Of a stretch of 23,867 nt of DNA, positions 2,398 to 21,734 are shown in pieces. Numbering within the stretch: the first letter of the stretch is position 1; every line of letters starts with the position of its first letter. This DNA is from a virus, in IMG/VR virus record IMGVR_UViG_3300009103_000154, positions 1 to 23,867 of that record; one strand, given 5' to 3'. The notes under the pieces were generated by a model. That model saw only the letters and a program-made list of their open reading frames with translations, made no database searches and was not told the origin of the DNA. Position numbers and translations under genes: made by a program.

Positions 2398-2605
2398 TAC
2401 GCGACCTTCTGTTCTCTGGGCTTCACAAACGAGCCAAGATGGTGTACAGAACTTATGGCCGCTTGACGGAGCGGCCCGACATATACCTGGTGGATCGTGC
2501 CCCTGTGGACCCGTATTAGACGCGGGCCAGGCCGAGCCCATCTGGATCCACAAGACCGAGCTCCAACGGCTCATCGTCCCTAACTACCTGCCGGAACAAA
2601 CCTAA
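2378..2605 (+). CDS. Short CPCGP-motif phage protein, unknown function
   Basis: The 75-residue frame starts at ATG 2378, inside the last 20 bases of the small-terminase gene, and its TAA overlaps the next ATG (TAATG). Residues 29-59 contain LDGAARHIPGGSCPCGP and end in IWIHK. An H-x(4-6)-C-x-C-GP motif followed by a short hydrophobic I/V-x-H strand occurs in a family of small phage proteins of unknown function that I recall from many tailed phages. The Cys-Cys-His set could bind a metal, which is an inference. Coupling on both sides places it in the packaging/structural operon. A 26-codon alternative reading at 2439-2519 was considered and set aside. Confidence 0.65.
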   Translation: MVKTSPNTRPSVLWASQTSQDGVQNLWPLDGAARHIPGGSCPCGPVLDAGQAEPIWIHKTELQRLIVPNYLPEQT

Positions 2606-3228
2606 TGGCAAACTACGTTTTTAACATCGCAAAGAAACTCATGGCCTCTGGCGACATCCGGTTGGACGACCCCGGCGTGGATCTCTCCACGGTCGCAAAC
2701 GGAGCTGACACCAGCCACTCCAACACTGCCACAGCTACCGGCGAATATCGCGTACTGCTGATTGGAACCGGGAACACTCTCTTTAGAGCCGAAGAGGAGA
2801 ATGAAGTTGGTGGCACAACGAAACTGGCGATTGACCTCGCGGACCTAACAGAGGTCGAAGACCTTAAAGAGCTCAACGGGCTTGCGGGCTACACTGACCT
2901 CGCCTCAGGAGGCAGCGAAACTGACGGGGTCCTAGAGGGGTTATCTGTCGAGTCGATTGTCGCGGCCTCTGGAACGTCCTATACGAAGTGGGACGCAACG
3001 GACACGGTGTTCAACAACATCGCCACTGGCGGCGCAGTCCACGGCCTACTGATTATCTGGTCTAAGCTCACCCCAACCAGCGCGGGAACACCTGGGGAGC
3101 AACCCGGTAATGCCTCGTCGCAGATTCCCCTGGTGTGGATTGACCTCAGCGGTAGCCCGATCAGCACCAACGGCGGCGACATTGAGATCGTGTGGGCGTC
3201 TGACGGCATCCTGCGACTTAATGCCTAG
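2605..3228 (+). CDS. Probable virion structural protein
   Basis: This 207-residue protein starts at ATG 2605 (TAATG overlap) and opens with MANYVFNIAKKLMASGDIRL. Its composition is rich in Thr, Ser, Gly and Asp, with strand-forming runs such as YRVLLIGTG, GLLIIWSKLT and IPLVWIDLSG, and it ends DIEIVWASDGILRLNA. An NYxFNIAKG-like start followed by a beta-rich body ending in a strand with VLxA is a recurring form among small phage capsid- or tail-associated proteins of unknown precise role. No signal peptide or membrane segment is seen. It is translationally coupled to the giant repeat protein after it (TAGTG), so the two may act in the same particle substructure. Confidence 0.7.
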   Translation: MANYVFNIAKKLMASGDIRLDDPGVDLSTVANGADTSHSNTATATGEYRVLLIGTGNTLFRAEEENEVGGTTKLAIDLADLTEVEDLKELNGLAGYTDLASGGSETDGVLEGLSVESIVAASGTSYTKWDATDTVFNNIATGGAVHGLLIIWSKLTPTSAGTPGEQPGNASSQIPLVWIDLSGSPISTNGGDIEIVWASDGILRLNA

Positions 3229-6200
3229 TGCTTTGTCGGGTTGTCTCGTTTGATGTCGACCCGGACGGCCTAAACCCGTTTGCAAGGTACGTTGACGTCG
3301 TCACCGACGTTAACGGCAACGCCTTGCCGCGCCGGCCGATTCGGGCGGCCATCGCCGTTGCGGCGGCTGTCGATCACGACGTAGATCCAGGGGCCAGTCC
3401 TACCGGGCTAGGCACCGATGGTGCGGTGTGGAGCGTAGGGTTTATTGCGGACGGCGACGACGTATCCGCCTTAAGTGGTACTAACCCAAACTCAGCGGAC
3501 GTAAACAGGTTTTGCGTTACGGGTCTCTCTCGAGACGAGGGGCACGACGCCACAGGGGACACCAAAGCCAGGCGGAATCAAATACAGGGGGTGGAGGTGT
3601 ACCTCCACAACCCAGACGACGAGCAATGGGACGGAGGGGGCTCCAGTCTCCTAGAGGGGTACGCCTTTACTTGTAGTGCGGAGTTAAACCCCGTTGGTTC
3701 GGCCTTTGGAACAGCCACTGGCCGCCTGCGGGTCCACTACAAGGGAGGTATAAGCGACGGGTCAGGCGGGACTCGTCCGGTGCGCGTTACATACCACCTG
3801 TTTTACGGCGACTCCTACGTCGGCACCGACCCAACGGACCCCACTACCGAACACGACATAAAGGCGGTCGCCGGTGTGACGACTACAGGGTCGGGAACCA
3901 AATTCGTCCCGACATCTAATGCGTGGGCTCAATCCGAAGACCTGTTTAACCCTACCCATGTGTTTGTGGTGTCGGCCAATGGCTCTGGTGGTGCCGTGGG
4001 CTGGGCGCCAGCGTGGGTTGCGTCTGGCACAGGGGAGGCTGAGCGAGCCTCTGGCAACCCTTTTAGCGATGCTGTTTACGGCAGCTGGCAGATCGACGCC
4101 ATGCTAAGCATCGGTATATCGCAAAACGACATCGACGGCGAGGCGGTAAACAGGTCGCATACCTGGGCTGACGCAGGCGACGAGGGCACGACCAAAACCA
4201 GCGCTCACATGAGCGAGACGTATGCGCTGTTTAGCGAGATCAGCTCGTCGGCCGCGCTCACAGGCGCTGCTAAAATCGAATGTGTCCAGAACGGGTTTAA
4301 TGTCGTTCAGGACGGGACCGGCGACGAGGACTACGACTTTCTGTACCTGGCGCTCGATCTAGGTGAGTTCGGCTCCTCGTTCCTGTGGACGTACTCTACA
4401 GAGTCCGGCACCGGCGATACCGAGCTCAAGATTCCGGTTCCAGCCGTAGGCTCCGATCCGGGGTGGCTCGTTCACCCCTCAGCGATCATCGCCCTGCAAG
4501 GCCAGACTACCTACGGGCAAATTGGAGGGTCACAGACAGCTGCGACCTCAGCAACGATGGGTCTTGGCCTGGGGGCCAACAACGAGCAAACGTGGACGCG
4601 GCGCTTGTTTTTAACGGACGGGGGCAAGCTATACGGCTATGCCGGTTCCGCCCATCAAGACGAGGGCGAGCCGGGCGTTGACGGGCCGTTTGCCAGCTAC
4701 GAGTGGTCAAAGGGAGATTTCGTTCAGATTCTCGGCGCGGTAAACAGCTCGGACGAGGCGGAGGTCAACTCGTACCTGGGGAAGTGGTTTATTGACTCGA
4801 AGGCGAACGATGAGGAGATATATCTGGTTGATGCGGCCGGTAGTCCACCAGATGACCCATCCGGCATCCTCCCGTTAGTGGTCTCGGTTTTCCAGAAAGG
4901 CCTGGAGCTCGCCAAGGGCCAGCGTTCTATCGGGTGGCAGTCGGAGGACAACCAGTCAACGGCCGACACTCAGGCGTCCGTCTATGACGAGCTCGGCTAC
5001 CTGCTTAAAAAGCATGGCACCCCGACCTATGACACTAACACTGTTACCCGGTTTGAATGGGCGCCACACGATTCGGCCGGGAGCGTTCCGCATACCTGGG
5101 ACGCCAACCTCTACTATCACTCGAGCAAGCTCAATGCTCGCCAGTGGCCAATGCTCGCGTTCCAGATGGAACGTCAGCGGATACCCGTTACGTCAACGTC
5201 AAGCTCGGTCGAGTCGGTTACGCCTGGCGCGATATACCAATATCCTGAGCAAAAGGTCTATATAGGCCGGTCGGTCAATGTTGGCGTAGAGCACGGGTAT
5301 AAGGGCGAGTCGGCCCATCTAAACAGACAGAAGGTCACGCCAAACCCCGTTTCGTTCTGGGTTAGCGTCAAAACCAAACCAGAGTCCCGCTACTACATTG
5401 AGCTGCCGGCCGCTGTCACAACCAGGGTCGCCCCGTCTCTTGTAGAGACCAGGTATCACATCGAGCTCGAGGCCGCTGTTCCTATTGGGGTAACACAGCC
5501 AAACGTCGGGTTCACCATAGGCCTGACGCTGCAAAAGCTAATCCTCGCCTCTGACCGGACGGGATTCCAGGTCGTCGCTCCAGACGTATCTAAAGTCACT
5601 CTGCTGCACCAGTGGATCTATGCAAGCCGGGGCGTACAAACATTCGTCGAGGCCAACGATGCCGTTAAAGCCGGGACTACAAGGCAGTTTATAAGCCAGG
5701 ATCACGCTGTCCCGGTCGCTACGGCTGGAGTTACCTGTGTGGTTCCGAACTACGGGCCGATCCGACTAACAGAACTGCCGGAGATCACGGTAACGGCCAT
5801 AACTCCAGAGAGCCGTTATCAGCTGCTGCCGCCCGCTGTGGCGGTGCCGATGATCGCGGTGGATAATAGAGCTACGGCCACCGAGCAGTACGCGAACCCG
5901 GCCGCGGTGCCGATCTCATGCGAGGCTGTCCCGCCATTTGAGATCCTGCTGAAAAAGCAGACCATAACCGCCACGGTGGCGACTGCCGGGTCGGTTGCTA
6001 TAACGCCCGCGATAACCAGGACCAAGCAGACGGAGGTTGTAGCGGCCGCAACGTCTAGGGCGTTATCGTTGACGCCGGCCACTATCACGGCCACCAAGAC
6101 GACATTTACCGCGGCCGCGGTTGTTTCTAGGACTCTCGCGCCCAGCGTTACCAGTAACATCTTCGCGTACCAGAGCAAGACGGTGACGGCCGCAACGCTC

Positions 6201-8552
6201 CCGGTTTTTGCCAACAATGTAGACGCCGAGACAACAAGCCGGACGCTGTATATCGTAGCGGCGGCCTCGCAAGTGTCCGCGCCGCCGGCAGCGGTAGCCG
6301 ACACGCTGCAAACGCTTAGCCCCACTGCGGTAGAGTCCCGAACGCTGCCTGGCGTGCCAGTGGCAGAACTAAGGCCGGTGCTAACCGCCTTGCCGGCAGC
6401 CGTGGTGTCTGCTGTATTGCCCGGCTCCCCGGTAGTCTCAGACACAGGCCAGGCGATTGCTCCAGTGGCTTGCGCGATCCGCGTGCTACCCGGATACGCC
6501 TCCGCTAGTAGAACCGGCCAAAAGATCCACCCCGTCGCTGCCGGAGTTGCCGTTCTCCCTGGAGCTCCTGTTGTCACGCACCTCGATATAGGCCGCCCAT
6601 CGGTCGACGCGGTAAATGCTGCGGTGCTTCCGGGCGAGCCGGCGGTAAACCTTGTAACCGTAACCCAGAGGTCGGTGAGCTCGGTTGAGTCCAGAGTGCT
6701 CACCAGCGATCCAACGGCGAGAGCAAACCGGCAAAAGACATACCCGCTTGTCGTTGCCGTCCCGACGCTCTCCACAAGTCCCGCAGTTAACCGCGTAATT
6801 GTCCAAACCATCACGGTTGCGGCCGCCGTCGCGTCCCCCGTCTTGGGCCTGGCGCCGCAAAGAGTGGAGGCAACAAAACAGACCAGCGAAGTGACCTCGG
6901 TGTCAGTCGCGGTGCTTGGCCCAATACCGGCAACGGACATACGCGAGTATCAGCAGGTATCCGCTACTACTGCAACTGCCCGAGTCATGCCGGCCAGTTC
7001 GCTTGTAGCACGGTTGACAAAAGAGACTAGGGAGCCGACCTCAACGTCTGTCGCGGTGCTACCTGGCGCCGGCGACGTAGAGGTGCGCCTCCTACAGCAA
7101 GATGTCTCAGTAACCTCTACGGCCATTGGCGTAACTGGCAACCATGCCTACATCCTGCGCGGCACGCTCGCGGTCGTAACACCAACTTTGTCTGGTGTCG
7201 CTGCACCGTCGCCGGTTATCAGAACAACCAAGCAGACGGTAAGCGTTACAGGCGCTGCCTTCAGCTTGAGCTCCGGCGAGCAACAAGCCCGCCTGGTAGG
7301 TGCGCCTCAAAGCACAACGGTAACGGCCGCCAGATCCCGCGTCTTAGGTCTGGCACCGCAAAAAGTTACACGCCTCCATCAAGTCGTTGAGGTTATTGCC
7401 GCTGCACCTACTCGCCTCTTAGGTCAGTCGCCACAAAGAGTTACGCACCTCCACCAGACCGTCGAGGTAGTGCGTGCGGTGGCCTTCCTGGTTCAGTCCA
7501 GCGCGATAGGCATTGGCACCCTTCTAAACCAGTCTATTGCCGCCGTGGTGGCCGGCGTCACGGTACGGCCAACGTCTCCGGTCGTTAAGGCTGACAGGCA
7601 GACTTTCACCGCCGTTGCCGTAATTATCGCCGTGCGAGCTGGCGCGGCAGCGCAGTCCCGCAAACAGACCCAAACTGTTACGGCCGTATCGGCCATCGTT
7701 CGCGCCGGAAGCCCGACCGTAAAAGACTCAAAGCAGACAACGGTTGTTTCCGGCGCTCAGTCCCGCGTCGTGCCGGGAGACGCCTCTATTGTCGACAGGG
7801 AGCAGGAGGTCTCGGTCGCGGCGGTCGCGTCGAGAGTGTTGCCTGGCGATGCTTCAATAAGGCAGCTGGAGCAAACGCTCTACGCCACCGTCGCGGGAAC
7901 ACGGGTCTTTGCCCAGGCCCCTTCATTCCGTGGCTTTAGACAGACCAGGGTAGTCACCTCTGCCCAGTTCCGGTGCATCGGCCTTAGCACAGCAACGGTT
8001 ACGCTGTTAACCCAAACGGTAGAGGTCAGCTCGGCGGCGTCTAGGACGCTGGCGGTGGCACCGCAGAGTGTGCATAGGCGCTTGACCGTGTTCGCAACGT
8101 CCGCAAGGACAAATGTTGAGCCAGTCCAGGCGACCCTCACCACCTCTAAGAGGTCATACACGGTATCGGCCGGCTCGTCTCGAGTCCTGGCGCCGGCCAC
8201 GACAGTTAAAGGCTTAACGAGCGTAATAACGCCTCTGTCGGCGCAAGTTTTAACGGCGGCACGGAACGCGGAGGTTTTATTCACCCAGGTAGACGACTCC
8301 GGCCTAAACCGCGCCGTGCCTTTAAGCGTTGTCGCCCCACAACTAAAATTTAAGTCGCACCAGGCACCCCTACAGTCGATGACGGCCGCCCCGTTAGCGG
8401 CGGACGCCCTCCAGGTGGCTGCCTCTATGTCAGTGGAGTCTGGCGCTATAGCGGCCTCATTTGTTACAAACCATGCGGCCGGACGAGCTCGGGTGTATCC
8501 CACAGCAGCTCACTGGATCTGCACAGCCCTCTCAACCTCGAGACAAGTATGA
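3228..8552 (+). CDS. Giant virion protein with about 33 tandem 23-residue repeats
   Basis: This 1774-residue protein starts at GTG 3228 overlapping the upstream TAG. Residues 1 to about 700 are a non-repetitive, beta-rich, Gly/Asp/Ser-rich region of the kind seen in virion proteins. Parts such as THVFVVSANG through to YDFLYLALDL (about 235-374) resemble a domain I recall from environmental phage structural proteins. Diverged repeat-like segments appear from about 715 and become clear from about 910 to 1685. The unit is roughly 23 residues, with the pattern xQTVxVxAxxSRVLPGxP and then a short V-x-x link. Each unit predicts two short strands joined by a PG turn, so a fibrous beta-solenoid or bead string is likely. 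The last 90 residues are not repetitive. No catalytic motif, signal peptide or membrane segment is evident. Its position between the terminase genes suggests a head- or tail-decorating fibre, but this is inference. Confidence 0.85.
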   Translation: MLCRVVSFDVDPDGLNPFARYVDVVTDVNGNALPRRPIRAAIAVAAAVDHDVDPGASPTGLGTDGAVWSVGFIADGDDVSALSGTNPNSADVNRFCVTGLSRDEGHDATGDTKARRNQIQGVEVYLHNPDDEQWDGGGSSLLEGYAFTCSAELNPVGSAFGTATGRLRVHYKGGISDGSGGTRPVRVTYHLFYGDSYVGTDPTDPTTEHDIKAVAGVTTTGSGTKFVPTSNAWAQSEDLFNPTHVFVVSANGSGGAVGWAPAWVASGTGEAERASGNPFSDAVYGSWQIDAMLSIGISQNDIDGEAVNRSHTWADAGDEGTTKTSAHMSETYALFSEISSSAALTGAAKIECVQNGFNVVQDGTGDEDYDFLYLALDLGEFGSSFLWTYSTESGTGDTELKIPVPAVGSDPGWLVHPSAIIALQGQTTYGQIGGSQTAATSATMGLGLGANNEQTWTRRLFLTDGGKLYGYAGSAHQDEGEPGVDGPFASYEWSKGDFVQILGAVNSSDEAEVNSYLGKWFIDSKANDEEIYLVDAAGSPPDDPSGILPLVVSVFQKGLELAKGQRSIGWQSEDNQSTADTQASVYDELGYLLKKHGTPTYDTNTVTRFEWAPHDSAGSVPHTWDANLYYHSSKLNARQWPMLAFQMERQRIPVTSTSSSVESVTPGAIYQYPEQKVYIGRSVNVGVEHGYKGESAHLNRQKVTPNPVSFWVSVKTKPESRYYIELPAAVTTRVAPSLVETRYHIELEAAVPIGVTQPNVGFTIGLTLQKLILASDRTGFQVVAPDVSKVTLLHQWIYASRGVQTFVEANDAVKAGTTRQFISQDHAVPVATAGVTCVVPNYGPIRLTELPEITVTAITPESRYQLLPPAVAVPMIAVDNRATATEQYANPAAVPISCEAVPPFEILLKKQTITATVATAGSVAITPAITRTKQTEVVAAATSRALSLTPATITATKTTFTAAAVVSRTLAPSVTSNIFAYQSKTVTAATLPVFANNVDAETTSRTLYIVAAASQVSAPPAAVADTLQTLSPTAVESRTLPGVPVAELRPVLTALPAAVVSAVLPGSPVVSDTGQAIAPVACAIRVLPGYASASRTGQKIHPVAAGVAVLPGAPVVTHLDIGRPSVDAVNAAVLPGEPAVNLVTVTQRSVSSVESRVLTSDPTARANRQKTYPLVVAVPTLSTSPAVNRVIVQTITVAAAVASPVLGLAPQRVEATKQTSEVTSVSVAVLGPIPATDIREYQQVSATTATARVMPASSLVARLTKETREPTSTSVAVLPGAGDVEVRLLQQDVSVTSTAIGVTGNHAYILRGTLAVVTPTLSGVAAPSPVIRTTKQTVSVTGAAFSLSSGEQQARLVGAPQSTTVTAARSRVLGLAPQKVTRLHQVVEVIAAAPTRLLGQSPQRVTHLHQTVEVVRAVAFLVQSSAIGIGTLLNQSIAAVVAGVTVRPTSPVVKADRQTFTAVAVIIAVRAGAAAQSRKQTQTVTAVSAIVRAGSPTVKDSKQTTVVSGAQSRVVPGDASIVDREQEVSVAAVASRVLPGDASIRQLEQTLYATVAGTRVFAQAPSFRGFRQTRVVTSAQFRCIGLSTATVTLLTQTVEVSSAASRTLAVAPQSVHRRLTVFATSARTNVEPVQATLTTSKRSYTVSAGSSRVLAPATTVKGLTSVITPLSAQVLTAARNAEVLFTQVDDSGLNRAVPLSVVAPQLKFKSHQAPLQSMTAAPLAADALQVAASMSVESGAIAASFVTNHAAGRARVYPTAAHWICTALSTSRQV
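5955..8282 (+). repeat. Tandem array of about 33 diverged 69-base coding repeats
   Basis: In the frame of the giant protein, units of about 23 codons (range about 21-28) follow each other with little interruption. Most begin with a basic or polar residue then QT, for example KQTVSVTGAAF, HQTVEVVRAVA, KQTQTVTAVSAIV, EQTLYATVAGT. Conserved positions are QT at the start, alternating V/A in the first strand, S-R-V-L near position 11-14, then PG or GLAP, and a V near position 20. Nucleotide identity between units is low, so this is an old amplification kept at the protein level. The best-preserved block is about 7657-7927. Confidence 0.8.
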
Positions 8553-8998
8553 ACTCAGCCGCGACCTTAACTATCTACGAAGGACAGGACGTATGGACCG
8601 TGGCAAGAGTAACCCTGCCCACAGGGGCCGCATTAAAGCAGGCCGATGTGCCGGCAGACGCCACCGACCCCGTAGAGGCCCACGTTTATCTTATTACAGA
8701 CGGAGCCGCCACACTTAAGACCAAGTATAAGTATAGCGCCACGGCGGGATGGACGGCGGACACCACTTTAGGCGCCCATGCTGCTCCTGGCTCAGGGGGG
8801 TGCTTGTCTGACACGCTACTCACGGATGGATACTGGTCGGGCGACGCTACGGGATACAACTTCCGTCACCAGATCCCTGGCTCAAACTTTGACGCCGGCG
8901 GGGGCCGCTATCGCATCGAATACTCTATTACGACGAGCAGCTACGGCACTATGTTTGTCGTAACCGAGGTGGCCTCAAGAGCCTTGTCTCACAGCTAA
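8549..8998 (+). CDS. Probable small virion protein
   Basis: This 149-residue protein starts at ATG 8549, overlapping the stop of the giant gene (ATGA), and its TAA overlaps the large-terminase ATG. The N-terminal part (LTIYEGQDVWTVARVTLP) and the C-terminal part (YNFRHQIPGSNF, GGRYRIEYSITTSSYG, MFVVTEVASR) form a beta-sandwich-like pattern. The motif of an NF-x-H segment, a GG-x-YRIEY strand and an ending VxEV strand recurs in small phage structural proteins next to packaging genes. Coupling to the giant repeat protein suggests the two are made in similar amounts, perhaps as partners. No enzymatic motif is visible. Confidence 0.72.
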   Translation: MNSAATLTIYEGQDVWTVARVTLPTGAALKQADVPADATDPVEAHVYLITDGAATLKTKYKYSATAGWTADTTLGAHAAPGSGGCLSDTLLTDGYWSGDATGYNFRHQIPGSNFDAGGGRYRIEYSITTSSYGTMFVVTEVASRALSHS

Positions 8999-10368
8999 TG
9001 TCTAAAGAGGTCGAGTACAAGGACTATGTCCCTTCTGGAGCTGCTTACGAGCTGTTCACCCAGGCCATCCACGAGAGGGATCCCGAGATCCTTATTGAAG
9101 GGCCGGCTGGCACCGGAAAAACAAGAGCTGTCCTTGAGTACGTCAACTGGCTCTGCGAGAGCTATCCTGGAATCCGTATTCTCGTGTTCCGCAAGACGCG
9201 GACCTCGATGAACGAGTCCGTGCTTGTCACCTGGGAGGAGAAAGTGCTCTGGGACGGCCACCCGGCCAAGGTCGGGGACGCGCACCGGAACAACAGGCAG
9301 CACTACCACTACCCCAACGGTAGCCACGTTGTTATCGGGGGCATGGACAACTCAGACAGGATCATGTCCACGGAGTACGATGTGGCGGCCTGTTTTGAGG
9401 CCACCGAAATCAGCCTAGAGGACTGGGAGAAGGTGCAGAGCCGGCTCCGTAACAACATCTTGGACTGGCAGCAGGGGATTTGCGACTGCAACCCAGGGTC
9501 CCAATATCACTGGCTCAACCAGCGGGCCAACCAGGGCAAGATGCGCCGGCTCCTGTCGCGCCATGAGGACAACCCTACGGTCACTGAGGCCTACTTGAAC
9601 ACTCTTCGCAATTTGACCGGCGCACGCTACGAACGGCTGTTCAAGGGCCGCTGGGTGTCTGAGGAGGGCCTTGTGTATGACGGGTGGGATCCCGCCACGC
9701 ATATCATGGAGCCGGAGGACGTCCCCGAGCTCAAGTGGCACTTCGGAGCGGTGGACTGGGGCTTTCGAGCTCCAGGCGTCTTCCAGGTCTGGGGCGTGGA
9801 CAACAACGGTGCGATGTACCGCGTAGCGGAGATATACAGAACCCAAAAGCAGATTGACTGGTGGGCTGAGGCTATCTGGCGTCTGCATAACGAGTACAAC
9901 CTGTCTGCGATAACGTGCGACCCAGCTGAGCCTCGCTCCATAGATATGCTGAATCAGCGCATGGGTGATCCAAGGGGCAGGGATATGCCCTCGTTGGCCA
10001 GAAAGGCCGACAACGACATCATGGCCGGCACCGACCAGGTGAGGTGGGCGATGGACCCCGGCGGAGACGAGCCGCCCCTTCTGTATCTAGTAAAGGGTGC
10101 GCTAAGAGAGGGCCGTGACCCGGCCCTGGCGGAGTCCTTTGCGCCTTGCTGCACGGAGGAAGAGGTTACGGGCTACGTTTGGCTGAAACAGGACGATGGC
10201 AAGCCCATCAAAGAGAAGCCCGACCCGGCCTGCCCCGATCACGGCCTAGACGCTATGCGCTATGCCGCCATGTTCGCCTGGAGAAAAGACTTAGTTGCAC
10301 CCAGCAACGGGCCGGCCTTCCCCCATGGAAGCCTCGGGCAAGTCCTTAAACATAACGAGGTTTTTTAA
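8998..10368 (+). CDS. terL: Terminase large subunit (ATPase and nuclease)
   Basis: The large terminase powers DNA translocation into the prohead and cuts the concatemer. The 456-residue product starts at ATG 8998 (TAATG overlap). It has a Walker A motif GPAGTGKT at 35-42, and a Walker B/catalytic-Glu segment in DVAACFEATE at 128-137. A QGICDCNPGS segment (159-168) fits the end of the ATPase domain. The C-terminal RNase H-like nuclease shows its acidic triad: Asp253 in AVDWG, Asp308 in AITCDPAEP, and Asp414 and/or Asp418 in CPDHGLDAMRYA. The length and motif spacing match full-length phage terminases, so the enzyme looks intact. It is followed by a small basic protein and the portal, its docking partner. 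Confidence 0.96.
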   Translation: MSKEVEYKDYVPSGAAYELFTQAIHERDPEILIEGPAGTGKTRAVLEYVNWLCESYPGIRILVFRKTRTSMNESVLVTWEEKVLWDGHPAKVGDAHRNNRQHYHYPNGSHVVIGGMDNSDRIMSTEYDVAACFEATEISLEDWEKVQSRLRNNILDWQQGICDCNPGSQYHWLNQRANQGKMRRLLSRHEDNPTVTEAYLNTLRNLTGARYERLFKGRWVSEEGLVYDGWDPATHIMEPEDVPELKWHFGAVDWGFRAPGVFQVWGVDNNGAMYRVAEIYRTQKQIDWWAEAIWRLHNEYNLSAITCDPAEPRSIDMLNQRMGDPRGRDMPSLARKADNDIMAGTDQVRWAMDPGGDEPPLLYLVKGALREGRDPALAESFAPCCTEEEVTGYVWLKQDDGKPIKEKPDPACPDHGLDAMRYAAMFAWRKDLVAPSNGPAFPHGSLGQVLKHNEVF

Positions 10369-16299: not shown

Positions 16300-17355
16300 A
16301 TGTCTAGCGGCTCCGTTCCTTCTGGGTTCTCAAACTCGTTGGCTCATCAGCAGTCGGCGATGACGACGCATCGGGCAAAGCTCGCTCTCCGCCAGGCGGT
16401 CGGAGGCGAGCTCCCGCCCCACCTGGATATAGACGAGTTTTCGCTCATCAACGAGGCTGGTCATTTCATGACCACCATGCACCAGTGGAGCTGGCTCGAG
16501 GGCGGAGAAGTTCGGTTAGACCTCCGGGCTAACATCACTGTCACGGGTGTCACCACTAGCGTTACCACTGCTAATACGCTAAACGTCGTGTGTGGCGCCA
16601 GTCAGTTTACGGACTACACCTTCCTTGAGGGCGACCACCTGGAGATCACGGGGGGCGGCAACCTGAACAAGGGCTTCTACCGCATCTCTAAAATCGTAGA
16701 TGACACTACTATCGCGCTAGAGGACAGCCCGCTCACGGACACATCCGCGGCCGGAACGTCTCTTACCGGCACGCTTCACGCTTCGGCCTGTGCCCTTCCC
16801 CTGGACTTTCGGGAGATCACAGGGCTCTACGCCGAAAGGGACACTAACAACCATGTGGAGCTGACCACGCTGCAAGACCTGATAGAGAAGCGATCTATAA
16901 ACGCTACCTCTCCTGGGACGTACTACGCGGCAATCAGTCACTCCATGGACATTGGCAACGAAGAGGGGGAGGCTGGACCGCGGGCTCGGCTGGAGCTGTG
17001 GCCTACACCGTCAGCTAGTAGGGTGGGAGGCCTGGCCATGTTTTATCGGGCGGGCTGGCAGACCTCAACGTGGGACAACAACCTGCTTAGGATGCCAGGG
17101 TACTGCGAGACCCTGTATCTAGAGATACTGGGGGCCTACGGTCGCTCTAGGGCCCTGCACACTGATCTAAGCGCTGATCTGGCTCGCGTAATGGCTGGAC
17201 CCATCTTTATCACAGCCATGGAAAGAGACACGACGACGCAACCGGACTATGGCCGCCTGCGTAACGGCGCAGCGGACAGCTTTGCGATTGGCGGAGGCCG
17301 GCACTGGATCAACGAGAACCAGGGAGCCCCAACCCCGCCTAAGCACCTTCGTTAA
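16300..17355 (+). CDS. Head-tail adaptor/neck-like protein, copy 2 with an inserted domain
   Basis: This 351-residue protein shares with copy 1 a GGEL-P-x-LD motif, an N-EAGHFMTTMHQWSWLE segment, an I-G-Y/L-x-R-D turn, a strand ending FYRAGW, an M-P-x-W/Y helix, and RD-x(6)-Y-R-x-R-G near the end. Between the W-WLE segment and the I-TGLYAERD segment it carries about 80 extra residues (about 78-155), including ASQFTDYTFLEGDHLEITGG and GFYRISKIVDDTTIALEDSP. The insert looks like a small beta barrel or sandwich. An 11-base gap separates it from copy 1, and its TAA overlaps the next ATG. It is probably a neck ring or upper tail component; which of the two copies contacts the portal cannot be told. 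Confidence 0.72.
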   Translation: MSSGSVPSGFSNSLAHQQSAMTTHRAKLALRQAVGGELPPHLDIDEFSLINEAGHFMTTMHQWSWLEGGEVRLDLRANITVTGVTTSVTTANTLNVVCGASQFTDYTFLEGDHLEITGGGNLNKGFYRISKIVDDTTIALEDSPLTDTSAAGTSLTGTLHASACALPLDFREITGLYAERDTNNHVELTTLQDLIEKRSINATSPGTYYAAISHSMDIGNEEGEAGPRARLELWPTPSASRVGGLAMFYRAGWQTSTWDNNLLRMPGYCETLYLEILGAYGRSRALHTDLSADLARVMAGPIFITAMERDTTTQPDYGRLRNGAADSFAIGGGRHWINENQGAPTPPKHLR

Positions 17356-20300
17356 TGGCTGATCGCGTTGACATCCCGTTCCCGTCTGGAGGTCTTAGCG
17401 ATGCGCTGCCGTTTGGAGATCAGCAACCGGGCACAACGAGAGAGGCCAAGAACGTCAGGGCTGTAGACGCCGAGACCGGCCGCAACAGGGGCGGCCAACG
17501 CCCCGGCCTGTCAATGTTCTCAACGGACGCCGTAAACGCCGGCGACAAGGTCCAGGCGATTACGTCCCTCTCTGTCCATAACCCCCGCACCACATACTCA
17601 CAGCGCCTAGTTACGGGCGGGACAAACCCGTTTGTAGTTAACGAGGGCGAGTGGAAGGCTACGACCAGAGACAAGGGGAATGTCAAGGCCATCGCCACCG
17701 ACCGGCAATCTAACGTCTACGCATTAGACGACAGCGGCGTGCTGTACAAATACTCCAGCGACGGCGAGCTCATTGAAGAGCACCCCGTTGCATCGTGGAC
17801 GCACCTTAACCTGGCGCCCTCTCTCGAGGTCGACGCGGTAGGTGGCGTCTATGTGGGTGGCGGCACAATCCCCGAGGGGGAGGCCGGCGACATTATCCGG
17901 CTCCACTACGAGCAGAAGACAGAGGAGTCTGGGTACTTCACCGAGACGTACCGTATCAGCCTTAACGCAACCCCGGTGGACTTCAAGGTCCAGGGCGACA
18001 GGCTCTATGTGCTCATGTCCCGCAAAGAGGACTCAACCTCAAACAAGAGTGCGGTGCGGTGCTATGCGTTCATATTTAGCGGGGCCCCGGCGCTCTTATG
18101 GGAAAAGCCTGTCCCGCACCCGAGCAATAACCTGGCGGTCAACTCCCGCGGACAGGTGTTTGTTACGGCTCAACCCAACTCCCTGCGAGGCGCCGGCGAC
18201 AACGGGAACTTTAAGACAGTCTCTGTTAGCTGGGTCCCCAATCACCTGGCTAACGCGCACAAGCGCATACACTACTGGTTTGACGCTACGCGAGTCCTGG
18301 AGCCAAGCGGCGAGCTCCATCACCTCGACCACCCCATCCTTGTCGGCCGCGACCGGCGGCTTGACGACACCACGAGCTCAGAGACGGATCCCGCTTCGGG
18401 CTATTACAACTCATACGCCGGCCCGTTTACGCCGGGCGAGAACCAGTTTGGAACAGCTGGCCGGCACTTAACGGCCAGCCTGTCGGCCTTCCCCACGGGA
18501 ACCATTGTCAGCCCGGAGAAGTACCCGCCAAGCCCTCGCTTTCAGGCTAACCAGTTTGGTCAGTCAGCTGCCGGCAACGCCAACGAGATGGGCGTCGGCG
18601 TCTTGTTTGAAAGGACCCAGTGGGCAATCACGGGAGCCCATTCAGATGACATACCAAACACCATGGCGCTTCCATTTAAGCACTCACTCTGGCGCACGGG
18701 CACAAACGACCCCTCACACTCTGGAACTCCAGACGCAACCACAAGCGCAACGATAGCGAACAACGGAGCCCTGTTACCCGGCTGGGACGGGGCCAGTTGG
18801 ACCCTGTGTATGGTCGTCAAGTTTGAGCGCGACCCCCATGTAGGGGCGCTCTTTTACCACAACGTCGGTGGCGTTAAGATCGCCATTTGGGCCAATGCCA
18901 AGGGAGCTCCAGACCTGTCTAGCAACTTGCTTGACGCGACCGACAGCGACTTTGTCCAGGAGGGCGGCCTGCGTATCCACGTTGACACTGGAGAGCTGCA
19001 CGCTAACGCCGGAACGGGCTCCGACTACTCTGGTAGCGCGGGCGGCTCTACTACGTCAACGCACTTTAGCTACGACAACAACGTAGACTGCGCCATAATC
19101 ACCATCCACTTTGGGAATCCTGACGGTGGGCTGACCGGGAGTGCCAACGCCGGAGGTGTTAACCAAGTCCGCGTTAACGGCAAGGCGTGTTACGAGTTTA
19201 AGGCTGACGCCAACACTAACGGCTCCAGCGCCAGCTCCGACAACTACTCGATGTTCGGGACCACGATTAAAAACAACATCGGGTGGTATGAGAGCTCAAA
19301 CAACGCCCACGAAAACCCGGACAAGCCGCCGTATTCGTTTGTGGGGGCGCTAGGCGAGGTCCTGGTTGTGTTGCCGAATACGACAAGCTCGCTGTTCGAC
19401 ACGCCAACGACTTGCCCCTGTGGAACGGACTTAACGGTTAACCCGACCCTTGGCACGCACGGCGTTGGCACCGTAGACCAGGTCGACAATACGAGTGGTG
19501 TCGCGGCCTCTACGGCAACTGAGGTGGAGCACCTAGAGGGTTACCTGGCCCACAAGTACGGGGTGTCCCATATCCTTCCGCATGGATACAGCGGCGCCGT
19601 AAGCGGGTACTACAAGAACCACCCTTTTGGGGATGCTACCGGCGGGCAGTATTTCCCCGGCCGCGGAACGGCCAGCACCTCCTCGCTGGTTACTAACCCG
19701 GCCACCAACTCACTGGCTAGCACCGGGGCGATCACCGCTAAGTACGACGGGAACACCGGAGCCTTTGTGTGGGCCGCGGCCACCTCTGGCATGGGCTATG
19801 GCATCGCGGTTGACCAGACTGGCGACGTATACACGGTGGGGACAGATCCAGCTGGGGAAGCCAACGGGGACCTCATCACGGCCATTGTCGCCCGTAAGAT
19901 TATCGACAACGGCTCGACCTATAGCGTAGACACCAGCGACGGCGCCTGGGCTATGCAGGCCTACGAGGCCAACGAAGCTCCAGGGGGAGGCGACATCGTC
20001 GTCGACGGGGACAACTACAACGACCAGGTCACAGCCAATAAGTACACGCGGCTCCTAATAGACAGCCATGGGGACCTGTATTGGTGTAAGGCCTTGGCGG
20101 CCTCCTCTAAGGCCGCGCAGGTAGTCAAGATCATAGGCACTACATACACCCCGACCTCCGGCGGCAGCCCCGTAACGGCAAAGACCATTGCGTGGTATTT
20201 CAGCGTTCACCACTCCCAGGACTGCTTTAGCGTGGCACTGCCCAGCACCCAGCCTGGATATGGGTTCACGGACGTAATCGGCCCTGAAAGGATGTTCTTA

Positions 20301-21734
20301 GGCACTAGCAGCACCGTTAGCGAGGCTAACAACGTGCGCTCGGTAAGGCTCGTAAACGCGACTATCAACAACTCGGGCGACGAGTATAGCCCGCGCTCTA
20401 CGACCCATCTCGCGGTTGCAGGCGGGAGCATTAGGACATTCACGCGGGACGGCTCTACTAACCAGGTGTATGTCGACGCAGCCCTTGATGCAGCCGGTAA
20501 TGCCGACGCGCAGCTGAGCTCCACCAGCGACTACGTCCAGGCCGTCCCCCTGTTTGGAAAGGTCTACTTCTCTGACGGGCTTAACTACCGCGTGTACCAC
20601 CCGCCGTTGACCGGCCAAACCGGAGTCAAGCAGCACGGGGAGGTTAAGGAGTGGAAGGCGGCCGTAGGCGAGATGCCGGTCAGGCCTAAGATCATGGTGG
20701 GCTGGCACGGCCGTATTGTGATGGCCCGAACAGCTGACGACGCCTTTGACTGGCAGATGAGCAAGATCGGGGACCCGTTTAACTGGGACTACTACCCCAC
20801 GCAGATCACGCCCACGCAGGCCGTGACCGGGGCGAGCTCGAGGTTCGGCAAGTCGCCCGACATTATTAACGCTCTTATCCCGTACTCGGACGACCTCCTG
20901 ATTGTGGGGGGGGATGCAACCATTATGAGGATGACCGGCGACCCGATGGCCGGTGGGCAGCTGGACCTAGTGTCGGACACAACGGGCATGGCCTACGGGC
21001 GCTCATGGTGCCGAGGGCCTGACGGCTCTGTGTTTTTCTTTGGGTCTCGTGGGGGCGTGTTTGCCCTTAGCCCAGCAGGGGCCATGGCGCGTATCTCAGG
21101 GGCCATCGACCGTAGGCTTATCGACGTCGACACGGCGGCTAACAAGGTAGAGCTGGTCTGGGACCATATCGAGAACGGGCTTCACGTCTTCCTGTTCTAC
21201 TACGGATCTACCGTGGCCACCCGGACACATTACTTCTGGGATTCGTTAAACGCAGCTTGGTACGAGGACACATTTACTGGTAGCTCCGTTCAGCCAACCG
21301 CTGTGGCCACCCTGGACGGGGACACCGGCAACGACCGCGTCATGGTTGTAGGCGGCCCCACGGGCCTCCTGTACTTCTGGGACCGGGACGCAAAATCGGA
21401 CAACGGCACCGCTATTGAAAGCGAGGTCCTGCTGGGGCCCCTTGCCCCTAACGACGCCACTAGCACGGTGCGCTGGACAAGGCTCGAGGCCCTTATGGCG
21501 GATAGCCAGGGCGGCGTCCGGTACGAGCTCATGGCCAACGACAACCCTGACACTATCGGGGACATTGTCGCCGCCGGCGAGCTCTCTGGCGGCCCAAACC
21601 CCATTAAGCCTGTAAGGGCAAAGGGCCGTGCCGTATGGCTGCGGCTGCGTAACCGCCAGGCGGGCGAGCGTTGGGCTATGGAAAGTATTGCCTTAACTGC
21701 GAGTACGGCGGGTCGGCGGAGGATCAGGTCTTGA
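17355..21734 (+). CDS. Large tail protein: beta-propeller with lectin-like insertion
   Basis: This 1459-residue protein begins at ATG 17355 (TAATG overlap). The N-terminus carries NVRAVDAETGRNRGGQRPGL at 33-52, a motif I associate with large phage tail proteins. Residues about 100-300 and 770-870 contain propeller-type repeats (NVYALDDSGVLYKYSSDG; GIAVDQTGDVYTVG). Between them, about 305-740 has IHYWFDATR at the start and LEGYLAHKYGV at 727-737, which bracket concanavalin A-like/laminin G-like lectin domains in environmental proteins. Residues about 1060-1300 (VPLFGKVYFSDG, KIMVGWHGRIVMAR, DPFNWDYYP, LLIVGGDATIMRMTG, SVFFFGSRGGVFAL) resemble podovirus tail-tube/hub proteins of the T7 gp12 kind. 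It probably forms the tail nozzle or hub, with the lectin domain exposed for sugar binding. The function is inferred from architecture. Confidence 0.75.
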   Translation: MADRVDIPFPSGGLSDALPFGDQQPGTTREAKNVRAVDAETGRNRGGQRPGLSMFSTDAVNAGDKVQAITSLSVHNPRTTYSQRLVTGGTNPFVVNEGEWKATTRDKGNVKAIATDRQSNVYALDDSGVLYKYSSDGELIEEHPVASWTHLNLAPSLEVDAVGGVYVGGGTIPEGEAGDIIRLHYEQKTEESGYFTETYRISLNATPVDFKVQGDRLYVLMSRKEDSTSNKSAVRCYAFIFSGAPALLWEKPVPHPSNNLAVNSRGQVFVTAQPNSLRGAGDNGNFKTVSVSWVPNHLANAHKRIHYWFDATRVLEPSGELHHLDHPILVGRDRRLDDTTSSETDPASGYYNSYAGPFTPGENQFGTAGRHLTASLSAFPTGTIVSPEKYPPSPRFQANQFGQSAAGNANEMGVGVLFERTQWAITGAHSDDIPNTMALPFKHSLWRTGTNDPSHSGTPDATTSATIANNGALLPGWDGASWTLCMVVKFERDPHVGALFYHNVGGVKIAIWANAKGAPDLSSNLLDATDSDFVQEGGLRIHVDTGELHANAGTGSDYSGSAGGSTTSTHFSYDNNVDCAIITIHFGNPDGGLTGSANAGGVNQVRVNGKACYEFKADANTNGSSASSDNYSMFGTTIKNNIGWYESSNNAHENPDKPPYSFVGALGEVLVVLPNTTSSLFDTPTTCPCGTDLTVNPTLGTHGVGTVDQVDNTSGVAASTATEVEHLEGYLAHKYGVSHILPHGYSGAVSGYYKNHPFGDATGGQYFPGRGTASTSSLVTNPATNSLASTGAITAKYDGNTGAFVWAAATSGMGYGIAVDQTGDVYTVGTDPAGEANGDLITAIVARKIIDNGSTYSVDTSDGAWAMQAYEANEAPGGGDIVVDGDNYNDQVTANKYTRLLIDSHGDLYWCKALAASSKAAQVVKIIGTTYTPTSGGSPVTAKTIAWYFSVHHSQDCFSVALPSTQPGYGFTDVIGPERMFLGTSSTVSEANNVRSVRLVNATINNSGDEYSPRSTTHLAVAGGSIRTFTRDGSTNQVYVDAALDAAGNADAQLSSTSDYVQAVPLFGKVYFSDGLNYRVYHPPLTGQTGVKQHGEVKEWKAAVGEMPVRPKIMVGWHGRIVMARTADDAFDWQMSKIGDPFNWDYYPTQITPTQAVTGASSRFGKSPDIINALIPYSDDLLIVGGDATIMRMTGDPMAGGQLDLVSDTTGMAYGRSWCRGPDGSVFFFGSRGGVFALSPAGAMARISGAIDRRLIDVDTAANKVELVWDHIENGLHVFLFYYGSTVATRTHYFWDSLNAAWYEDTFTGSSVQPTAVATLDGDTGNDRVMVVGGPTGLLYFWDRDAKSDNGTAIESEVLLGPLAPNDATSTVRWTRLEALMADSQGGVRYELMANDNPDTIGDIVAAGELSGGPNPIKPVRAKGRAVWLRLRNRQAGERWAMESIALTASTAGRRRIRS
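18267..19575 (+). other. Lectin-like (concanavalin A/LamG-type) domain within the tail protein
   Basis: The domain spans about residues 305-740 of the protein. It starts with IHYWFDATR and ends with VEHLEGYLAHKYGV, the paired landmarks of a family of jelly-roll domains. Within it, FSYDNNVDCAIITIHFG, NQVRVNGKACYEF and FVGALGEVLVVLPN give the expected strands. Boundaries are approximate and the family call is from memory of the motifs. Confidence 0.6.
21718..21722 (+). promoter_or_regulatory. Shine-Dalgarno selecting a TTG start
   Basis: GGAGG lies 8 bases before TTG 21731, inside the end of the large tail gene. Its ideal spacing, together with the TTGA stop/start overlap, favours TTG 21731 over ATG 21671, which lies 64 bases inside the upstream gene. 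Confidence 0.7.

Follow-up and report, generated by a model that had tools for sequence, protein, structure and literature searches.

A 33-unit repeat array in a protein encoded between the terminase genes of a phage contig, a probable virion-surface adhesin or fibre

The window, that is, the whole 23.9-kb viral contig analysed here, encodes on its plus strand a 1774-aa repeat protein (REP; positions 3228-8552, GTG start) that probably acts as an adhesin or fibre on the surface of the virion. It would have a stalk of beta repeats that can expand, and is carried in an exchangeable gene cassette. Its location on the virion is plausible from the position of the gene and from the comparison with relatives; the geometry of the stalk and the binding to a host are likewise inferred. 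Phage fibres made of repeat arrays are an already known kind of protein; the repeat sequence of REP is new.

Position of the gene and architecture of the protein

The genes of the window follow one another on the plus strand in the order orf1, RusA, TerS, orf4, REP, orf6, TerL, portal, orf8, scaffold-like, MCP, decoration-like, orf12, major tail protein and a tape-measure-like ORF. RusA, TerS, TerL, portal, MCP and the major tail protein had clear family matches (PHROG/Pfam), and the other labels are based on weak matches or on position only. The 1459-aa ORF located after the major tail protein gene (17355-21734) was called tape-measure-like by its position, and showed no significant Pfam or PHROG match. 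REP is flanked on the terS side by orf4 (207 aa; 2605-3228, plus strand), a small partner with homologues in the related contigs L066 (46%) and L002 (41%), and on the terL side by a second small partner, orf6 (149 aa; 8549-8998, plus strand), which separates the slot protein from TerL in most of the relatives whose contigs reach far enough upstream.

The position of the gene, amid packaging and head genes and not 3′ of the tape-measure gene, where tail fibres are usually encoded, argues against a tail fibre and makes attachment to the head the main rival explanation. According to it, REP would be a head fibre or capsid decoration, binding polymers of the host surface or of the environment with no injection being triggered. 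The gene indeed belongs to the packaging/head module, where it follows TerS and precedes TerL, portal, scaffold and MCP, and in another phage, L051, a protein with a repeat array is encoded between the portal gene and putative head genes. The position of a gene, however, says little about where its product sits on the virion, and the nearest annotated proteins with arrays of similar period are annotated as tail proteins. We consider a head fibre or capsid decoration rather unlikely.

REP comprises an N-terminal region (residues 1-690; 3228-5297), a stretch of marginal, degenerate repeats of 21-25 residues (residues 691-909; 5298-5954), the 33-unit array (residues 910-1686; 5955-8285) and a C-terminal cap (residues 1687-1774; 8286-8549), all encoded on the plus strand. 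The cap, located behind the array, was absent from the first-pass annotation. The N-terminal region is acidic (net charge -48) and the array is basic (+31).

Periodicity, age and relatives of the array

The first-pass annotation had described about 33 consecutive units close to 23 residues in length, with little DNA identity between them. Autocorrelation, cross-half profiles and shuffles all supported a real repeat array. Using BLOSUM62 scores, the autocorrelation of residues 910-1685 was highest at lags 70, 23 and 24 (z = 7.0, 6.7 and 6.2), with a further signal at 47, and residues 1-600 gave z values of at most 2.8 at every lag. A gapless parse divided the array into 33 units of 20-27 aa (mean 23.5), all of which were recovered by a unit HMM with bit scores between 4.6 and 20.1. 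Also, an HMM built from units 1-16 detected units 17-33 with 79.8 bits (maximum of 1000 shuffles, 11.5), and the reciprocal search gave 54.8 bits (shuffle maximum, 10.9). Nucleotide repeats were few and weak, in line with the low DNA identity described, and the mean identity between units was 22%.

The consensus columns also agreed with the pattern previously noted (QT-V-x-V near the start, S-R-V-L-P-G in the middle and a late V). Counts were Q 22/28, T 18/31, V 18/33, S 13/33, R 14/33, V 24/33 and L 18/33, followed by a P/G column, P (17/33) and V/I (16/33). Each unit begins with hydrophobic columns alternating with Ser/Thr, continues with S-R-V-L, a P/G turn and P-x-V, and ends in a charged linker of variable length. 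This succession of columns is suggestive of two short strands in each unit. An AlphaFold2 monomer model of 13 units was all beta, with about two strands per unit, at low confidence; the mean pLDDT of 39 means that the model speaks neither for nor against a regular fibre such as the solenoid or bead string predicted in the first-pass annotation. The model of the L002 orthologue was unusable (pLDDT 29).

Could such a signal arise from Ala/Val/Thr-rich low-complexity drift, or from a wrong reading frame, instead of a functional repeat? The marked bias in composition, with about 61% of A, V, T, S and P, and the low identity between units would fit this explanation. Composition-preserving shuffles, however, never matched the signal, and the orthologue keeps both the N-terminal region and the cap. 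Comparison of codons between units pointed in the same direction: position 3 differed in a fraction of 0.719, compared to 0.728 in random codon pairs, and was thus saturated, while positions 1 and 2 differed in 0.60 and 0.57, compared to 0.71 and 0.70. The shuffle and codon-position tests together refute drift or a wrong frame, whose probability we regard as close to negligible. Moreover, saturation at position 3 combined with conservation at positions 1 and 2 indicates that the units are old and have been kept by selection at the protein level. Adjacent units resembled each other most (P = 0.001), which is what tandem duplication of one unit at a time would produce.

Weaker units had been proposed to extend the array back to residue 715. 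In REP itself this extension was marginal (lag 25, P = 0.022; unit HMM score reached by 63 of 2000 shuffles, P about 0.03). The L066 stretch homologous to the 691-909 region, which aligns with the L066 array, did show a clear 23-residue period (z = 4.6; 0 of 1000 shuffles).

Regarding known families, nothing in Pfam or NCBIfam matched REP at E ≤ 1, PHROGs gave only two sub-threshold matches (E about 0.5), PDB sequences nothing convincing (best E 0.66) and tblastn against 50,697 phage records no match, an absence that applies to the collections searched. When viral contigs, phage genomes and PDB sequences were searched with the array, with the N-terminal region or with complete REP, L002 and L066 were the only homologues, and REP showed no homology to fibres that have been studied experimentally. 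The array is therefore still unrecognised by family collections and PDB sequences, and the outcome named beforehand as speaking against it, namely that the units clearly match some known family of repeats, did not turn up. This kind of element is, however, less isolated than the first-pass annotation implied: minor tail proteins of mycobacteriophages contain arrays of similar period, as do other environmental phages.

Exchange of the cassette between the terminase genes

IMG/VR was scanned with MCP and TerL, which yielded more than 100 related contigs. Two of them, L066 and L002, carry clear REP orthologues. Between L066 and the window, protein identity was 94% for TerL and 82% for TerS, compared to 33% for REP. 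The L066 orthologue has 1005 aa, so that REP exceeds it by about 770 residues, or some 30 units. The BLAST alignment ended at residue 945 of REP and 886 of L066, and a second one paired REP 1704 with L066 935; from these end points, about 700 REP residues, roughly 30 units, would have no counterpart in L066. Conservation was found at both ends of the protein: in global alignments the N-terminal region was 42% identical in L066 and 33% in L002, and cap residues 1704-1770 were 37% identical in L066 (E = 5e-7). L002, whose MCP is 72% identical, encodes a 618-aa orthologue that shares REP residues 1-682 at 26-32%, with a short array of 18-residue period at its end. In the more distant L013, the 540-aa slot protein resembles REP only weakly, in its N-terminal part, and includes a short array of 20-22-residue units; as judged by eye, L013 also has an ORF resembling orf4. 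In L026, a 400-aa ORF (6789-7991) located 3′ of MCP and orf12-like genes showed a strong 37-residue period (z = 8.4).

At the DNA level, the window and L066 aligned at 1237-2483 (72%), 3159-3224 (85%) and 8787-10341 (78%), with nothing alignable across REP. Since the REP DNA cannot be aligned and its flanks can, the orf4-REP-orf6 cassette diverges or is swapped far faster than the flanking genes. The 66-nt stretch at 3159-3224 (plus strand), at the end of orf4 and just 5′ of the REP start, is bordered on both sides by non-alignable sequence, and is possibly an exchange or recombination junction, or else a conserved translation signal.

The slot 5′ of orf6-TerL is usually occupied in the relatives. 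BLAST grouped 41 slot proteins, REP included, into seven unrelated families, which, together with the identities of TerL (94%) and REP (33%), shows faster divergence and modular exchange than in the genes for packaging and the virion core. C-terminal arrays of 18-25-aa units were present in five of these families, with periods of 23 (window and L066) and 18 residues (L002) in the first, 25 (L094) and 23 (L093) in the second, 23 (L106 and L095) in the third, 23 (L133) in the fourth and 20-22 (L013) in the fifth. The 16 members of the largest family sampled (L003/L009/L011/L014 type) showed no convincing array, with one borderline signal. The array of L133 is preceded by a PKD domain.

In L132 (4917-6845) and L137 (2043-3914), the nearest large ORF 5′ of orf6/TerL encodes a sulfatase (PF00884; E = 4e-13 and 2e-27). 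These enzymes may act from the virion on sulfated polysaccharides, or may be auxiliary metabolic genes. The PKD domain and the sulfatases in or near the slot suggest proteins aimed at the host surface.

The location of the gene directly between both terminase genes could also mean that REP is ejected with the DNA or acts inside the infected cell, in packaging, replication or host take-over, and is repetitive by chance. Such a role is improbable in view of the divergence of REP, far above that of both terminase genes, and of the relatives, which swap in unrelated beta-repeat or PKD proteins or carry a sulfatase nearby. That one slot repeatedly harbours unrelated proteins with similar arrays is better explained by host-surface recognition than by packaging, and constitutes the strongest hint about function.

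As for the host range of the lineage, the bacterial genome collection contained a sole MCP relative, in a decayed remnant (L060; CP070811.1) of an Anaerolineales MAG (Chloroflexota) with portal, scaffold and MCP homologues at 42, 31 and 56% identity, which gives a hint about it. A search of 396 genomes of the class of this MAG returned that MCP, one further marginal match (E = 8e-4) and nothing for the N-terminal region of REP.

Comparison with other repeat systems and proposed function

The L106 slot array matches proteins annotated as minor tail proteins in Mycobacterium phages (52 Mycobacterium records), a name that is in these phages an annotation; in the loci read, the array genes adjoin other minor tail genes and lie just 5′ of lysis genes. 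GIASxEAFGxPxV repeats, without a Pfam match, are common to the slot proteins of L106 (3-1703) and L095 and to mycobacteriophage loci L140-L143. These EAFG repeats (GIxSxEAFGxPxV; Kumao gp32, Beckerton gp31, Konstantine gp36 and L106) are tandem units of 20-23 aa, compared to a mean of 23.5 aa in REP, and the L106 protein fills the same genomic slot. In the best profile register the S, G, P and V columns of both repeats coincide, but the REP units lack the EAFG core. Membership of REP in this group is therefore suggestive only: the EAFG HMM scored 0.3 bits on the REP array, equalled by 53 of 1000 shuffles, and unit-HMM searches between both repeats remained at shuffle level in both directions.

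Arrays of 22-residue HxHTADxPxL units, spaced mostly by 22 and also by 20 or 24 residues, were found in L047 (2616-4253), L048, L049, L051, L055 and L056, which are unrelated environmental phages. In those scanned, the repeat had no Pfam, PHROG or NCBIfam match, and these proteins are a possible metal-binding fibre family. In the tail fibre of Alteromonas phage R22Y, HxH pairs also lie about 22 residues apart (PMC11705849). REP shares with the HxHTADxPxL proteins a 22-23-residue period and a tandem array placed after a non-repeat N-terminal region; it lacks HxH, having arginine there in 14 of the 33 units and only 0.9% His in the array, and its array is basic. Homology, pursued on account of the period and the motif spacing, was rejected, as the HGH-unit HMM gave 0 bits and the profile comparison was not significant.

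When profiles were compared in all cyclic registers, REP-EAFG was best at shift 2 (P = 0.033-0.042), REP-HxH at shift 0 (P = 0.17-0.19) and HxH-EAFG at shift 2 (P about 0.33), all values being uncorrected and the first coming from one of several comparisons. The three registers are mutually consistent. Given the uncorrected multiple comparisons and the lack of cross-detection by unit HMMs, a common origin is hypothetical. A single unrecognised fold including REP, EAFG and HxH units, with a terminase-gene slot that exchanges unrelated N-terminal regions and beta-repeat stalks of 18-25-residue (often 23) units, is a tentative idea that may well prove wrong.

In fibre shafts of the triple beta-spiral and T4 types, short-period beta repeats form a long shaft, the triple beta-spiral having a period of about 15 residues. 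REP, with its top lags at 70, 23, 24 and 47, lacks that period, and a triple beta-spiral was discarded. Tail proteins of crAss-like phages contain tandem BACON-domain repeats that have grown by duplication of single domains and have been proposed to bind the host (PMC6949934). REP resembles them as a tandem phage-protein array grown by single-unit duplication; BACON, however, is an Ig-like domain, and units of about 23 aa with no Pfam match place REP outside that group.

We propose that the N-terminal region and the small C-terminal cap would be the conserved functional ends of REP, and that the 33 units between them would form either a long, extended, beta-rich stalk, each unit adding about two short strands, or else a surface for repetitive binding. 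Duplication or loss of whole units would lengthen or shorten the stalk and so alter how far it reaches or how many contacts it makes. The orf4-REP-orf6 cassette would be swapped, or diverge far faster than the surrounding packaging genes, as host-recognition genes do.

If this proposal is true, REP would represent a new phage repeat sequence family and its slot an unusual gene position for the exchange of adhesin-like genes. The window and L066 would constitute a natural pair, with the same protein differing by about 30 repeats, in which the effect of repeat number on adsorption could be tested. The comparison also suggests that many unannotated proteins of environmental phages would share this organization, a non-repeat N-terminal region followed by a stalk of roughly 23-residue repeats.
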